DNA from: Leeuwenhoekiella polynyae
GTDB lineage: Bacteria > Bacteroidota > Bacteroidia > Flavobacteriales > Flavobacteriaceae
Assembly (NCBI RefSeq): GCF_004104075.1
Contig: NZ_QOVK01000012.1
Location: 1-64,000 of the forward strand
Direction of reading: 5' to 3'
Length of the DNA stretch: 64,000 nucleotides
Under the pieces are notes generated by a model that saw only the letters and a list, made by a program, of their open reading frames with translations, was not told the DNA's origin and ran no database searches. Positions 2,098 through 38,156 of this stretch are shown here, piece after piece (position 1 is the first letter of the stretch; every line of letters starts with the position of its first letter). Position numbers and translations under genes: made by a program.

Positions 2098-2221
2098 AAG
2101 GTAGTATGCAAGTTTAAAAATGCTAAATCCCTGTAAAATAAAGGGTTGAAATATAATTGGAGCGTATGCAAATTATTGAAAAATAACAAAACAATACGCT
2201 ATTAATATTGAATAAAAATTT

Positions 2222-2229
2222 TATTTTTG
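2222..2229 (+). promoter_or_regulatory. Bacteroidota -7 promoter element upstream of TPR-ribH
   Basis: TATTTTTG matches the TAnnTTTG element used by Bacteroidota primary sigma factor. It lies 20 bp before the ATG at 2250. No TTG was found at the ideal upstream spacing (one is 11 bp away), so the assignment rests on one box. Confidence 0.45.
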
Positions 2230-2249
2230 CGCCCAACAAAAGTTAAAGT

Positions 2250-3014
2250 ATGGCCACATATCAAAAAAGGGGTTATAAACCTAAGACTAAAGAAGAAGTA
2301 GAGGAGCAGGTGCACGAAGAAAGTGCAACGGCAGAAGTTTTTGATTCACTTGATGAAGGTGCAACCAGAACCGAAGCTTGGGTAGAAGAAAATCAAAAAC
2401 CTATCTTCATTGGTATTGCAGTAATTGTACTTGCAGTGTTGGGGTATCTGGCATTTGAAAAATTCATTCAAGAGCCTAAAGAACTTGAAGCATCTAATGA
2501 GATGTATCAGGCACAGAACTATTTTAACGAAGCTATAGAAGGTAGTGTTGAGAAAGATTCATTATTCAGCCTGGCTCTTAATGGAGGTGAAGGTAAATAT
2601 GGTTTTCTTGATATTATAGATAACTATGGAAGCACAAAAGCCGGAAATCTTGCACATTATTATGCAGGTATGGCCTTTTTGAATACAAATAAATATCAGG
2701 AAGCTATAGATCAACTAGAAGATTTTAGTAGTGATGATATGATGCTTGCGCCTCTTGCTAAAGGAGCTATAGGTGACGCATTTATGCAGCTGGAGCAACC
2801 CGAAGATGCACTTTCTTATTATAAGGAAGCAGCAGAAATGCGTGCAAATGACTTTACAACACCACGCTTTTTAATGAAGGCTGCACAAACAGCAATAGCT
2901 CTTGGAGAAAATGATAAAGCTGCTTCTTTCTTAAATACTATTAAAGAAGATTATAGCGAGTCTGCAGAAGCAGCAAACGTACCTTTATATTTAGGTATGA
3001 CAGAAGCTGAATAA
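2250..3014 (+). CDS. TPR-containing single-span membrane protein (YfgM-like)
   Basis: 254 residues: a charged cytoplasmic N-terminus of about 50 residues, one membrane span (PIFIGIAVIVLAVLGYLAF, about 51-69), then a TPR-type helical region with repeated A..Y.E.A patterns (YQEAIDQLEDF, EDALSYYKEAAEM). The layout matches the YfgM/Tol-Pal-TPR type ancillary proteins that act near the Sec translocon; that role is inferred. It lies 12 bp upstream of ribH and both are probably transcribed together from a promoter close to 2222. The name 'tetratricopeptide repeat protein' is safe; the partner is unknown. Confidence 0.85.
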   Translation: MATYQKRGYKPKTKEEVEEQVHEESATAEVFDSLDEGATRTEAWVEENQKPIFIGIAVIVLAVLGYLAFEKFIQEPKELEASNEMYQAQNYFNEAIEGSVEKDSLFSLALNGGEGKYGFLDIIDNYGSTKAGNLAHYYAGMAFLNTNKYQEAIDQLEDFSSDDMMLAPLAKGAIGDAFMQLEQPEDALSYYKEAAEMRANDFTTPRFLMKAAQTAIALGENDKAASFLNTIKEDYSESAEAANVPLYLGMTEAE

Positions 3015-3026
3015 AAAATATACATT

Positions 3027-3518
3027 ATGGCTACAACAGACTTGTCTGTTTACGATAAAGCAACAATCCCAAACGCGAAAGATTTTCGGTTTGGGATTGT
3101 TGTTTCTGAATGGAATCATGACATCACTGAAGGTCTTTTTCAAGGTGCTTTTGACACCTTTTTAGATTGCGGTGTACTTAAAGAAAACGTCGTAAGATGG
3201 AATGTTCCGGGAAGTTTTGAATTGATCTACGGTTGCAAAAAAATGCAGCAGAGTTATGATATGCTCGATGCAGTTATTGCTGTAGGAAGCGTTATTCAAG
3301 GGCAAACTAAGCATTTTGATTTTGTTTGTGACGGCGTAACGCAGGGGATAAAAGACTTGAATATCCAGAGCGATATTCCTGTTATTTTTTGTGTTCTTAC
3401 CGATAATACCCTGCAGCAAGCTATAGATCGTAGTGGCGGTCAGCACGGTAACAAAGGTGTAGAGGCTGCTGTTGCTGCAATTAAAATGGCACAATTACGT
3501 AAAGACGCAAAGTTTTAG
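3027..3518 (+). CDS. ribH: 6,7-dimethyl-8-ribityllumazine synthase
   Basis: 163 residues, typical length. It condenses 5-amino-6-ribitylaminouracil with 3,4-dihydroxy-2-butanone 4-phosphate in the penultimate step of riboflavin synthesis, usually in an icosahedral or pentameric shell. Visible family motifs are VPGSFEL, GSVIQGQTKHFDFV with the catalytic His, and the C-terminal GGQHGNKGVEAA phosphate-site region. It follows the TPR gene by 12 bp. No other rib genes and no FMN riboswitch were seen around it, so its expression probably follows the TPR gene. Confidence 0.97.
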   Translation: MATTDLSVYDKATIPNAKDFRFGIVVSEWNHDITEGLFQGAFDTFLDCGVLKENVVRWNVPGSFELIYGCKKMQQSYDMLDAVIAVGSVIQGQTKHFDFVCDGVTQGIKDLNIQSDIPVIFCVLTDNTLQQAIDRSGGQHGNKGVEAAVAAIKMAQLRKDAKF

Positions 3519-29923: not shown

Positions 29924-32092
29924 ATGAATACAGATATATCAATAGGAACCGGAAACCCAATAGACCGTGTAGAAGGTCGGCTTAAGGTGATGGGCCTAGC
30001 CAAATACGCTTCAGAGTTTAATGTGAAGAATTTGGCTTATGCACAAGGAATCAACAGTACAATAGCTAAAGGAACAATCACAGCAATAGATACCAGCGAA
30101 GCCGAAAAACAAAAAGGAGTTATTAAAGTACTTACTTATAAGAATGCAGATAAACTGAAGCAATATGATGAAGAATTACCTGCCATTTCAACCTCAAGCA
30201 TTCAGCCGGTATTGCAAAGCGCTGATGTGTATTATTACGGAGAATATGTAGGTCTCGTTATTGCAGAAACTTTTGAGCAGGCTCAATATGCCGCAAGTTT
30301 AGTAAAATATACATACAGCGAAGAGAAGCCCGATATAGATTTTGACAGTTCTCGAGCTAAAGCTTACAGACCCACAGAAAAATCCGACTATTCCAGAGGT
30401 GATGTATCGCAGGGATTGGCAGAAGCAGATGTCACACTAGAACAGATATATAATACTCCGATTGAGCATCATCATCCGATGGAGCTTCACGCGATTATTG
30501 CTTCGTGGAATAATGGAAATGTAGAGGCTTATGCAAGTCAGCAAATAATTGACGATGCAACCCTAACTATCGCAGATACTTTTCAGATCGAAAAGAAAAA
30601 TGTACGTGTAATAGCACCTTTTGTAGGTGGGGGTTTTGGGTCAAAACTTCACGCAAAACAACATGTTATTTTGGGAGTCATGGCCTCTAAGCAAATAGGC
30701 AGACCGGTACAAATGACCGTTACACGAAATCAAATGTTTACCAATACCAACCTGAGACAGCGTAACGAACAAAAAATGCAAGTGGGAGCTAAGTCAGACG
30801 GGAGCTTAACGGCTTTATCACACGATACTTTATCACATACTTCAACATATGAGGAGTTTCAAGAATCTTGTGGTACGGTTACAAAGATGTTATATAAAAC
30901 ACCAAATAATAAAGTAACACACCGTTTGATGCCTATGAATTTACAAACTCCGTTTGCTATGCGCGCGCCAGGAGAAGCAACCGGGAGTTTTGCATTAGAA
31001 TCTGCTATGGATGAAATGGCATGGAAACTAAAAATGGATCCTGTAGATTTTAGGGTTAAAAACGATACACAAGTTGACCCCAGCAGTGATAAACCTTTTT
31101 CTTCAAGATTGCTCAATGAATGTCTTAAGATAGGAGCTAAAGAATTTGGGTGGGAAGAAAGACCACAAAAACCAGGAACTAAAGAAGAAGGAAACTGGCT
31201 TGTGGGTTATGGTGTAAGTGGAGCTTCAAGGCGTGCTCCTTATCAGAAGACTTCGGCTAAAATTATTTTAGAACTTAAGGATAGTGAGGTGTTTGCAACC
31301 ATTCAAATGGATGCAACTGATATAGGTACAGGAAGTTATACCATTATCGCACAGACTGCTTCAGAGTATTTAAATATTCCTGTAGCGCAGGTTGATGTAG
31401 AACTAGGCGATTCAGATTTTCCTAAAACTCCGGGTTCCGGCGGTTCTTGGGGTGCTGCTTCTTTTTCAAACGGAGCACGGGCAGCTTGTGAAAATGCTAT
31501 TGCTTCTTTAGAAGAAAAATCCGGGTTAAAACTTGCTGATGCCGGTCTCGCTAAACTGATGCGATCCGGAAACCTCAATTCTTTTGAGGCTGAAGGAACG
31601 GCAGAACCTGATGAAGAGTTTAAGAAGCATTCAGTATTTTCTTTTGGAGCCAATTTTACCGAAGTTTGGGTGGATAAAGACACCGGAGTATTTAGAATTA
31701 AAAGAATGCTCAATGTAGCTTCCTGCGGAAAAATTCTAAATCCTAAGACGGCTTTCGGTCAGATAATTGGTGGTTGTGTGATGGGGGCCGGTATGGTAAT
31801 AGCAGAACAAACAAAAGTTGAACCTAATTACGGTAACTTCATCACCCGTTCTTTTGCAGATTATCATGTACCGGTAAATCTGGATATGGCAAATATTGAT
31901 GTGATCTTTTTACCGGAAGAAGATAAGATCGCAAATAAAATGGGAATTAAAGGTGTTGGTGAACTCGGTATTACCAGTGTAGCAGCTTCTATTGCCAATG
32001 CGATATTCAACGCCACCGGTAAGCGCATGCGTGATTTACCAATCACTCCAGAAAAATTAATACTAGCAGAAAAAGAACCCGGAGTTGCTTAA
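29924..32092 (+). CDS. paoC: Aldehyde oxidoreductase molybdenum-binding subunit
   Basis: 722 residues, typical for the family. Motifs: N-terminal GTGNPIDRVEGRLKVMGLAKYA, the molybdopterin-dinucleotide segment FVGGGFGSKLHAKQ, MRAPGEATGSFALESAMDE, PGSGGSWGAASFSNGA, and the catalytic Glu in KGVGELGITSVAAS near the C-terminus. It carries the Mo cofactor that hydroxylates the aldehyde. It has no signal peptide of its own and would be carried out by the Tat signal of the 2Fe-2S subunit. A hairpin after the stop is shared with the convergent xdhC-type gene. Confidence 0.95.
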   Translation: MNTDISIGTGNPIDRVEGRLKVMGLAKYASEFNVKNLAYAQGINSTIAKGTITAIDTSEAEKQKGVIKVLTYKNADKLKQYDEELPAISTSSIQPVLQSADVYYYGEYVGLVIAETFEQAQYAASLVKYTYSEEKPDIDFDSSRAKAYRPTEKSDYSRGDVSQGLAEADVTLEQIYNTPIEHHHPMELHAIIASWNNGNVEAYASQQIIDDATLTIADTFQIEKKNVRVIAPFVGGGFGSKLHAKQHVILGVMASKQIGRPVQMTVTRNQMFTNTNLRQRNEQKMQVGAKSDGSLTALSHDTLSHTSTYEEFQESCGTVTKMLYKTPNNKVTHRLMPMNLQTPFAMRAPGEATGSFALESAMDEMAWKLKMDPVDFRVKNDTQVDPSSDKPFSSRLLNECLKIGAKEFGWEERPQKPGTKEEGNWLVGYGVSGASRRAPYQKTSAKIILELKDSEVFATIQMDATDIGTGSYTIIAQTASEYLNIPVAQVDVELGDSDFPKTPGSGGSWGAASFSNGARAACENAIASLEEKSGLKLADAGLAKLMRSGNLNSFEAEGTAEPDEEFKKHSVFSFGANFTEVWVDKDTGVFRIKRMLNVASCGKILNPKTAFGQIIGGCVMGAGMVIAEQTKVEPNYGNFITRSFADYHVPVNLDMANIDVIFLPEEDKIANKMGIKGVGELGITSVAASIANAIFNATGKRMRDLPITPEKLILAEKEPGVA

Positions 32093-35718: not shown

Positions 35719-35878
35719 AGTTTTATTTTTTAGAATAATATAAAATTATCTTTAACTACATTAATGACCAATTTTAGAATAGGAATTGGCTTAAGTTTAA
35801 TAAGTAGCTTTAAAATTTAGTTAATGATGAATTATAAAAACTGATCTATTTATTTTGATAATATTAAATTTGAGCTTT

Positions 35879-36994
35879 ATGATAATAAATAGATCCATCC
35901 ACTTTTTAGTCTTGAGTTCAGTAATGCTTTTGCTTGTTGGCTGCAACAATGAAAGTGAAAAAAATAGGGAGGCAAATTCTGTTGGAGAAAAAGAACCTGT
36001 TATAGCATTAATCGTCAAACAACCCGATAGTATTGAAACTCCAAAAGATATGGTTTGGGTTTCCGGTATCCATTTTACACAAGGTGCTCAGGCCGGAGAT
36101 CAACTCGCATTACCTCGGGAGAAACCAGCTCACCCGGTTGCCGTAGATGGTTTTTTTATAGATAAAACCGAAGTTACAAACGGTCAGTTTAGAAAATTTG
36201 TAAAAGCTACAGGCTATGTCACTACTGCAGAGCAACCTGTTGATTGGGAAGAAATGAAAAAAACCTTACCTGCCGGAACTCCAAAACCTGCAGATAGTAT
36301 ATTCAAACCCGGTTCTTTAATTTTCAATAGAAATGTAGCTAGCGTAACAGATCTGAACAATTATACGCAGTGGTGGGAATGGAAAATTGGAGCTAACTGG
36401 AAGCATCCGCAAGGCCCGGAAAGTAACATAGAAGGAAAAGATAATTACCCGGTAGTTCACATAACTTATGAAGATGCTTTAGCTTATTGTAAATGGGCAA
36501 ATCGTCGATTACCTACAGAGGCAGAATGGGAAGCTGCCGCTCATGGTAAAATGTCCGGAGGAATCTATACCTGGGGTAATGATGATTCGGATTTAAGTAC
36601 CAAAGCAAATACGTGGCAAGGTACTTTTCCAACTAAAAATTCTGCTGAAGACGGGTATTCCTATGTAGCACCTGTTGCCACTTACGATCCCAATTCATTA
36701 GGTATTTTTGACATGTCTGGTAATGTTTGGGAAATTACTCAAGATTGGTTCTCTGTTCGCTATTATAAGGATATTTTAGGTAATGAAGTCATAAATCCTC
36801 AAGGACCTTTAGAATCTTACAACCCTGAAAACCCGTATCAGCCAGAAAAAGTAATCAAAGGAGGCTCATTTCTTTGCGCTGCCAGTTACTGTGCAAGTTA
36901 TCGTATTTCGGCTCGTACGCCGCAGGCGTTAGACTCTTCTACAGATCACAGTGGGTTTAGAACCGTGGCCGATATAGCGATGCTTAAACCTTAA
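35879..36994 (+). CDS. Formylglycine-generating-enzyme-like (SUMF1) lipoprotein
   Basis: 371 residues from ATG 35879; an upstream TTG (35855) would spoil the signal. A lipoprotein signal ends at LLLVGC. The FGE-sulfatase fold shows MVWVSGIHFTQG, VDGFFIDKTEVTNGQF, WANRRLPTEAEWEAAAHG, GIFDMSGNVWEITQDW and KGGSFLCAASYCASYRISAR. Both copper-binding cysteines of true FGEs are present (Cys333, Cys338, five apart), so it may convert a sulfatase Cys to formylglycine. It would act in the periplasm or on the surface. The next gene (GH43) is 97 bp downstream on the same strand. Confidence 0.9.
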   Translation: MIINRSIHFLVLSSVMLLLVGCNNESEKNREANSVGEKEPVIALIVKQPDSIETPKDMVWVSGIHFTQGAQAGDQLALPREKPAHPVAVDGFFIDKTEVTNGQFRKFVKATGYVTTAEQPVDWEEMKKTLPAGTPKPADSIFKPGSLIFNRNVASVTDLNNYTQWWEWKIGANWKHPQGPESNIEGKDNYPVVHITYEDALAYCKWANRRLPTEAEWEAAAHGKMSGGIYTWGNDDSDLSTKANTWQGTFPTKNSAEDGYSYVAPVATYDPNSLGIFDMSGNVWEITQDWFSVRYYKDILGNEVINPQGPLESYNPENPYQPEKVIKGGSFLCAASYCASYRISARTPQALDSSTDHSGFRTVADIAMLKP

Positions 36995-37091
36995 TTCGTT
37001 TTAATTTTTAAATTAATTCAAAGGATTTCGTATTATTGTTTTATAAATGTAAATCAGACACTTTTTAAAACAGCCATAAACTCCACAAAAT

Positions 37092-38156
37092 ATGATATCT
37101 AAAATTTTCAGTTTTCACAAGTATTCACTTTTAGGTCTTTTTACAGTTTTAATGATTTTCAATTCCTGTAAAAAAGAAACAGATAAAGAAGTTATTATTG
37201 AAGAAGAGCTTGCCCAAAACAAGGTAGAAGAAATGCCGTACAACAATCCTATAGTTGGGCAACGAGCAGACCCATGGGTTTATAAAGATACTGATGGCAC
37301 CTACTATTTTATTGCTACAGCTCCTGAATATGATCGTATTGAAATTAGAAAGGCAAATACCATTAATGGATTAGGAACAGCAGAACCTCACGTTATCTGG
37401 ACCAAACATGAAACTGGAAATATGGGGCATCATATTTGGGCTCCCGAGTTGCATAAAATAGATGGTAAATGGTATGTGTATTTTGCTGCCGGCGAAGTTG
37501 AAGATGTTTGGAAAATACGCATGTTTGCACTTTCTACAGATGCTCAGGATCCTACAGAAGGTGATTGGGTAGAAGAAGGTCAAATTGCTACAGAACATGA
37601 TTCTTTCTCACTTGATGCGACATCTTTTGAACATAATGGAAAGCGTTATTTAATATGGGCACAAAATATAACCGAAGGAACATCACTGGTAATGTCTGAG
37701 ATGGAAACACCTACAAAACTCAAGGGGCCAGAAATCATCATTACCAATCCAGAATTTGATTGGGAGCGTATAGGATATATAGTAAATGAAGGTCCGGCAG
37801 TTCTTAAGCGTAATGGTAAAATATTTGTTACGTATTCTGCAAGTGCAACAGATTCTAACTATGCAGTAGGCTTATTGTGGGCTGATGAAGATGCAGATTT
37901 GATGAATGAAGAATCTTGGAACAAGTCTAAAGAACCGGTCTTTTATACTAATGCTGAAGTGAGACGTTTTGGGCCCGGACACAATTCCTTCACAAAATCT
38001 GAGGATGATCAAAAAGATGTTATGATATACCACGCCCGTGTTTACGAGCAAATACGAGGCAATTCGTTATATGATTTCAACAGACATACCCGTGCACGTG
38101 TTATAGGCTGGGACGAAAACGGTTTTCCTGATTTTAGACAGGATGCTCGTGACTAA
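37092..38156 (+). CDS. Glycoside hydrolase family 43-like lipoprotein
   Basis: 354 residues with a lipoprotein signal (MIFNSC, Cys26), then a five-bladed beta-propeller. GH43 landmarks are NPIVGQRADPWV (Asp60 as base candidate), GHHIWAPELHKIDGKWYVYF, SLDATSFEHNGKRYLIW (second Asp) and VNEGPAVLKRNGKIFVTYS (acid Glu). Members cut arabinose- or xylose-containing glycans; subfamily and substrate cannot be read here. The lipid anchor suggests a surface or periplasmic enzyme, and the FGE-like lipoprotein upstream may be part of the same polysaccharide function. No SusC/SusD pair is in the window. Confidence 0.9.
   Translation: MISKIFSFHKYSLLGLFTVLMIFNSCKKETDKEVIIEEELAQNKVEEMPYNNPIVGQRADPWVYKDTDGTYYFIATAPEYDRIEIRKANTINGLGTAEPHVIWTKHETGNMGHHIWAPELHKIDGKWYVYFAAGEVEDVWKIRMFALSTDAQDPTEGDWVEEGQIATEHDSFSLDATSFEHNGKRYLIWAQNITEGTSLVMSEMETPTKLKGPEIIITNPEFDWERIGYIVNEGPAVLKRNGKIFVTYSASATDSNYAVGLLWADEDADLMNEESWNKSKEPVFYTNAEVRRFGPGHNSFTKSEDDQKDVMIYHARVYEQIRGNSLYDFNRHTRARVIGWDENGFPDFRQDARD

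Follow-up and report, generated by a model that had tools for sequence, protein, structure and literature searches.

A predicted lipoprotein formylglycine-generating enzyme of Leeuwenhoekiella polynyae that appears to be anchored outside the cytoplasm

Textbook bacterial formylglycine-generating enzymes (FGEs) are cytosolic. In the window analysed here, a 64,000-nucleotide stretch of contig NZ_QOVK01000012.1 from L. polynyae, we find an FGE gene whose product, the activating enzyme of sulfatases, appears instead to be anchored outside the cytoplasm, a location comparable to that of the human enzyme in the endoplasmic reticulum (ER) lumen. We consider it probable that this protein is a true aerobic FGE acting outside the cytosol.

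Results

A full-length FGE with a predicted lipoprotein signal

Read from a TTG codon, the open reading frame of the FGE spans 35855–36994; the ATG at 35879 is the better start and gives a product of 371 residues (Table 1). Its N-terminus, MIINRSIHFLVLSSVMLLLVGC, has a hydrophobic core free of charges and, after it, an LVGC lipobox, and a short linker joins this predicted signal to a full-length FGE-sulfatase domain (PF03781, 241 bits, E 1.9e-71, profile positions 3–254 of 255). Export signals, here and below, were called by a hydrophobic-core and lipobox rule made for this analysis, not by SignalP. By this rule the initial annotation, which had the protein exported by way of a lipobox, is upheld as a prediction, with Cys22 closing a signal of residues 1–22, and the same arrangement of signal and lipobox occurs in the Flavobacteriaceae relatives L039–L045, L047 and L048. 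Bacteroidota lipoproteins are known to use an acidic surface-export signal; judged by its letters, the NNESEK that directly follows Cys22 does not look like one. The annotation had assigned the gene to 35879–38156, a span that stands for its FGE part but also takes in a separate GH43 lipoprotein gene.

Table 1. Coordinates of the FGE gene, its parts and the adjacent GH43 gene in the window
Feature	Coordinates	Strand	Basis
FGE gene, 371-residue lipoprotein with PF03781 catalytic domain	35879..36994	+	Pfam, PDB alignment, AlphaFold2 model
Predicted lipoprotein signal peptide, residues 1-22; lipobox LVGC, Cys22 the predicted lipidation site	35879..35944	+	Hydrophobic-core and lipobox rule
FGE catalytic domain, residues 56-363	36044..36967	+	Pfam
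Active-site segment C333-A-A-S-Y-C338, presumed copper-binding cysteine pair	36875..36892	+	Alignment to PDB 6s07
GH43 lipoprotein gene, judged to lie outside the FGE system	37092..38156	+	PF04616, 205.8 bits

Alternative start codons within the frame raise the question of whether the signal might go unused, through a downstream start or retention of the product, with maturation proceeding in the cytosol as in actinobacteria. The nearest downstream starts, however, lie inside the hydrophobic core, a lipobox or other export signal was called by the rule in 21 of 23 class-level homologues, and the protein sits in a clade of a tree that shows only two changes of state overall (see below); we regard an unused signal as very unlikely.

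Active-site cysteines and predicted fold match those of catalytic FGEs

Cys333 and Cys338 both lie within the segment KGGSFLCAASYC. Its alignment with KGGSFLCHESYC, from the FGE of PDB 6s07, is gap-free, as is that with the corresponding part of human FGE. The two cysteines match the pair, five residues apart, of the GGSxxCxxxxC segment, confirming that both active cysteines are present. The pair is invariant in 23 of 23 class-level homologues, which were not picked for having it; a wider alignment of 47 sequences was selected for the cysteine pattern, and invariance of the pair there was therefore not used as evidence.

Scored against solved proteins, the sequence gave 211.6 bits with the FGE of PDB 6s07, ∼206 bits with human FGE and ∼85 bits with the T9SS lipoprotein PorK. 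An AlphaFold2 model (mean pLDDT 91.7, built on 47 sequences) superposed on the FGEs of T. curvata, human and S. coelicolor with Z 38.8–39.6, the best FGE match having Z 39.6, at 1.8–2.0 Å over 273–276 residues; the corresponding values were Z 34.9 for human SUMF2 and Z 28.2 for PorK. The aerobic bacterial FGEs of T. curvata and S. coelicolor (PDB 5nxl, 6s07, 2q17 and 6muj) are thus alike in domain and fold (Z 38.8–39.6), with 44–46% identity over aligned residues and the cysteine pair in the same segment. The assignment of the cysteines to a copper site derives from the alignment to solved FGEs rather than from model coordinates, so the expectation that a model would place them there stands for the active-site positions by alignment and for the match of the model to FGE, the site placement itself being alignment-based.

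The family is often repurposed in Bacteroidota, where PorK-like proteins keep the fold but have no such cysteines, in the portion of the source available (PMC12421860), and the host genome has GldK- and GldJ-like genes of its own. The protein could accordingly be pictured as a catalytically silent lipoprotein whose role, as with GldK/PorK or SUMF2, lies in structure or folding, the sulfatases being matured by a cytosolic route outside the known ones. Against this, the active-site cysteines are retained in every one of the 23 class homologues, the nearest solved structures are active FGEs rather than PorK, and the NCBIfam GldK model falls far short of its cut-off; we judge a silent role very unlikely. 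Identity as GldK/PorK was rejected at 133.6 bits against a cut-off of 350 (TIGR03525), as GldJ at a score far below the NCBIfam cut-off, and as an EgtB/SenA sulfoxide synthase at 92.1 against 360 and 96.7 against 420 (NCBIfam). The T9SS lipoproteins GldK/PorK and GldJ share the FGE fold and lipoprotein export with the window protein but, as far as the excerpts available describe them, differ in having insertions, a structural role and no catalytic cysteines.

Sulfatases and maturases of the host genome

The source genome (4.79 Mb, 47 contigs, rated 100% complete) contains nine PF00884 matches. None is on the window's contig, in agreement with the original remark that no sulfatase lies nearby. 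Four of the nine are C-x-P-x-R sulfatases (CCPSR, CSPAR, CGPSR and CSPSR), their motif cysteines falling 64, 61, 69 and 57 residues after their own predicted lipidated cysteines. The occurrence of C-type sulfatases with Sec signals in the genome had been set beforehand as a test, and all four carry lipobox signals by the rule. The anSMEs carry the SPASM domain, PF13186; in a profile search of the whole genome PF13186 had no match, and the best TIGR03942 match was a MoaA-like gene at 20.8 bits (cut-off 349.45). By these profiles no anSME was found in the genome, a point put forward for checking at the outset, and we rejected such an enzyme as a backup maturase. Three further FGE-fold genes resemble GldK, GldJ and EgtB, and all are without the cysteine pair. 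With no anSME match and no cysteine pair in the other FGE-fold genes, the searches leave the lipoprotein FGE as the one known maturase detected here. Two COX1 genes are also present, which fits an aerobic life. That an exported FGE serves exported sulfatases is well supported as a prediction, because the four C-type sulfatases have predicted lipoboxes, the cysteines align, the model is FGE-like and no anSME was found.

Elsewhere in the host genome, on the contig of locus L014, an EgtB-like FGE-fold gene (976–2142) is directly followed by a methyltransferase-like gene (2152–3123); the two look like an ergothioneine pair, the first having been detected by PF03781 and both names being given by eye. 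The window itself also encodes, at 29924–32092, a molybdenum hydroxylase large subunit whose nearest NCBIfam model is PaoC (698 bits, below the cut-off of 1180).

The glycan context proposed at the outset fared less well. The GH43 gene next door had been tied to the FGE, and we rejected it as a functional partner: at E 1e-10 a homologue was found near the FGE gene in none of 20 relative loci, some of which are short at contig ends. Sulfated algal polysaccharides had been named as the target; two of the four sulfatases do have glycoside hydrolase genes around them (GH92 and GH2 for one, together with an MFS transporter, an esterase and a hybrid two-component regulator; GH3 and a Glycoamylase-domain gene for the other, together with an esterase-like gene), but none of these identifies the glycan or connects the FGE with such polysaccharides.

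FGE genes are concentrated in sulfatase-rich genomes of the class

We sampled 295 genomes of the class. With FGEs counted at E 1e-60 or better among the best six candidates per genome, at least 21 of them have an FGE, with at least 23 genes. By the rule, 18 of the 23 products are lipoproteins, three have another N-terminal signal or anchor and two have none; both unsignalled enzymes come from a single genome, G145, where they occur alongside a lipoprotein FGE. We called a genome sulfatase-rich if it had at least four PF00884 matches at 1e-40 among its best seven candidates. On a table tallied by eye, at least 15 of 25 sulfatase-rich genomes (14 of 24 once the source genome itself is left out) have an FGE against at least 6 of 270 others, for which Fisher's test gives p 2.4e-14 with the window's genome included and with related genomes that are not independent.

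The remaining sulfatase-rich genomes comprise two with a divergent lipoprotein bearing a cysteine pair, three with an anSME and five with neither. The two divergent lipoproteins, L139 in G242 (GGSFLCEPGWC) and L140 in G085 (GGSFLCDLNVC), were found by a looser search, have no other FGE candidate beside them in their genomes at E 1e-30 and are not among the 15. The five genomes with neither (G272, G031, G262, G270 and G276) gave no FGE at E 1e-30 and no anSME at E 1e-60; perhaps some of their PF00884 matches are something other than sulfatases, or perhaps they have a different maturase. An anSME above the cut-off occurs in 6 of the 295 genomes, none of them among the 21 with an FGE. Chance alone would give ∼0.4 shared genomes, so this zero overlap is uninformative and mutual exclusion of the two maturases was discarded.

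Predicted FGE location changes little on the tree of the enzyme

The class alignment was used to scan GTDB genomes and yielded a best 80 loci from many phyla, drawn by similarity to the Bacteroidia enzymes and so no census. We analysed the 65 with the cysteine pattern; in the 15 excluded loci the chosen reading frame was without it, 14 being distant (28–34% identity) and one, L099, having a short frame. Among these best loci, FGEs with a signal or anchor come from Bacteroidota, Planctomycetota, Verrucomicrobiota, Cyanobacteriota, Acidobacteriota, Myxococcota and Burkholderiales, and unsignalled FGEs from Actinomycetota, Bacillota, Chloroflexota, a Spirochaetaceae genome, the Verrucomicrobiota locus L089 and a mostly alphaproteobacterial group. 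L094 was reassigned by hand to the cytosolic set, the rule having fired on an inner hydrophobic stretch; L081_0 is exported by the rule with a doubtful upstream extension; four FGEs labelled 'tat' (L057, L058, L061 and L103) were counted as exported, although the RR may belong to an anchor; and L046 and L076, cut at contig ends, were labelled 'none' and have no counted sulfatase neighbours.

On an unrooted tree of 86 catalytic domains (L046, L076, L101 and L108 dropped), with location labels entered by hand for each locus, FGE location changes twice, and in 200 bootstrap trees the range is again 2 to 2; shuffled labels gave a mean of 23.1 changes, with 0 of 500 shuffles as low as 2. Unsignalled FGEs fall into two clades, one of the GGSHLCAPNYC type and one of the GGSYLCHxSYC type, and the window FGE falls within a clade of six Flavobacteriaceae-type lipoproteins (support 100/99). 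As far as sequence comparison goes, the predicted exported FGE is a variant of the known enzyme, common among the Bacteroidota FGEs found and not unique to this genome. The initial view that its layout differs from that of cytosolic FGE or anSME thus survives as regards the predicted export signal but not as a peculiarity of this organism.

Many FGEs have a short cysteine motif (for example CCTPAR, CCSASR or C-x(3-5)-P-S-R) after the start or signal and before the catalytic domain, resembling the sulfatase C-x-P-x-R; the window FGE is without it. It occurs in unsignalled enzymes (L082, L084, L085, L090, L094–L098 and L100) and in exported ones (L049, L050, L124, L128–L130 and L137 and, by eye, L131, L135 and L136). 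Matches to a pattern chosen post hoc, among relatives that are not independent, number 22 in the 86 N-termini, 14 of them in the 27 unsignalled and 8 in the 59 exported enzymes; shuffling would lead one to expect 4.8, and a few of the matches look fortuitous. The motif may mimic the substrate or act as a copper or redox relay.

Export signals are called in sulfatases near exported FGEs

FGEs that act at the site to which they are exported should have sulfatases that are exported as well. We counted C-type sulfatases in the flanks of FGE genes, 18 short class loci being swapped for wider ones and sulfatase frames being skipped if their N-terminus was not visible or they had no C-x-[PAS]-x-R motif. 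A countable sulfatase was present at 20 of 60 exported-FGE loci and 17 of 30 unsignalled-FGE loci. Export signals were called in 24 of 24 sulfatases flanking exported FGEs, against 3 of 21 flanking unsignalled FGEs (3 of 20 without L108, whose frame is odd and whose N-terminus is unreadable); per locus the counts were 20 of 20 against 3 of 17. The three signalled sulfatases near unsignalled FGEs comprise one of Tat type, one of Sec type and one with a doubtful start. A naive Fisher test of the neighbour counts gives 7.8e-10, which overstates the association because only two phylogenetically independent contrasts remain on the tree: random pairings gave on average 1.6 that agree, 0 that oppose and 0.4 with no difference (median sign test p 0.5, not significant).

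G145 offers what seems from its sequence to be the cleanest single case of compartment matching. Its three FGEs (L119, L121 and L122) are one lipoprotein and two unsignalled enzymes of the GGSHLCAPNYC type; ∼43 bases separate the lipoprotein gene from that of a sulfatase bearing a Sec-type signal, and an unsignalled FGE adjoins two unsignalled sulfatases. Eleven C-type sulfatases were read in this genome, six signalled and five not. L120, with two unsignalled sulfatases ∼12–16 kb from the G145 cytosolic FGE, was omitted from the neighbour count.

For five genomes the search found exported FGEs only, and in these signals were called in 24 of 25 C-type sulfatases, as read from 30 of 49 listed PF00884 matches and from further stretches: 4 of 4 in the window's genome, 7 of 7 in G040, 5 of 5 in G110, 4 of 4 in G278 and 4 of 5 in G166. 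The exception is an unsignalled sulfatase frame of G166 (G166:C24:55326-56588, L148) broken by a stop codon.

The separation of FGE and sulfatase genes in the host genome, together with L039–L043 and L047, which have no countable sulfatase within flanks of ∼5–6 kb, would also suit an FGE whose main substrate is a cysteine of some exported protein other than a sulfatase. Yet FGE genes go with sulfatase-rich genomes, a third of the exported-FGE loci above have sulfatases in their flanks, and the four C-type sulfatases of the host have no other known maturase found. A non-sulfatase substrate is accordingly unlikely in our view, and we retain the sulfatases as the probable targets.

Discussion

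Our reading of the exported FGE is as follows. The preprotein would be exported by Sec, lipidated at Cys22 and held in the cell envelope, where the lipid-anchored enzyme would fold beyond the inner membrane, probably facing the periplasm, and bind copper, with Cu(I) carried between Cys333 and Cys338. The sulfatases, themselves predicted Sec-exported lipoproteins, would cross the inner membrane unfolded, and the anchored FGE would act on the translocating chain, using O2 to oxidise the C-x-P-x-R cysteine to formylglycine before the sulfatase folds. The motif cysteine is only 57–69 residues from the predicted lipidated cysteine, which would place the tether near the modification site; because a lipoprotein sulfatase would be tethered so close, the anchored FGE could reach the C-x-P-x-R loop before its burial. 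Topology and chemistry would be those of SUMF1 in the ER lumen.

Some points count against this reading. The neighbour counts are clustered on the tree, where they amount to two independent contrasts only; G166 has its unsignalled, if interrupted, sulfatase frame; and five sulfatase-rich genomes yielded neither FGE nor anSME. In addition, exported sulfatases are not in themselves proof of exported maturation, since in Bacteroides a cytosolic anSME acts on Sec substrates. In other Bacteroidota, exported sulfatases are served by anSME, a radical SAM enzyme (TIGR03942) that is unrelated to FGE, cytosolic and oxygen-independent; in the host genome, by contrast, FGE is present and anSME was not found.

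Human SUMF1, whose site of action lies beyond a Sec-type membrane, has its fold and cysteine pair in common with the window FGE. The window FGE has no counterpart of the N-terminal cysteine pair of SUMF1, since no cysteine occurs between the lipobox and Cys204. In the parts of the sources available, SUMF1 is described as having its chemistry and topology in the ER lumen (PMC4505483), as a soluble ER protein retained by partner proteins (PMC7279497), in contrast to the predicted lipid anchor here, and as having an N-terminal extension with C50 and C52, required for sulfatase activation in cells, that is confined to higher eukaryotes (PMC7279497). Bacterial FGE is described as cytosolic, the available part of a 2015 FGE paper placing the prokaryotic enzyme in the cytosol (PMC4505483), whereas the window FGE has a predicted export signal with a lipobox. 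Within the open literature, and in the passages available from it, we found no description of an exported bacterial FGE. In such passages, papers on sulfatases of marine, soil and gut bacteria count FGE genes, list FGE among the proteins of a proteome, use the M. tuberculosis enzyme for co-expression or make no mention of FGE, and FGE location is not discussed there. In two studies of recombinant sulfatases, the excerpts have the enzymes made without signal peptides and co-produced with M. tuberculosis FGE; the second has them with and without FGE from a plasmid named for Rv0712, the M. tuberculosis gene.

We would put at about even the chances of a broader view, that in many diderms extracytosolic maturation is ordinary, FGE shares the compartment of its sulfatases and mixed genomes keep one FGE per compartment, the human ER system then being an old bacterial topology and not a eukaryotic departure. 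If the exported FGE acts as proposed, aerobic sulfatase activation in Bacteroidota would move outside the cytosol, with its limits set by copper, oxygen and periplasmic redox conditions rather than cytosolic ones. For recombinant use, an exported FGE would permit maturation of sulfatases in their native compartment, and for aerobic flavobacteria without anSME it would explain how exported carbohydrate sulfatases are matured.
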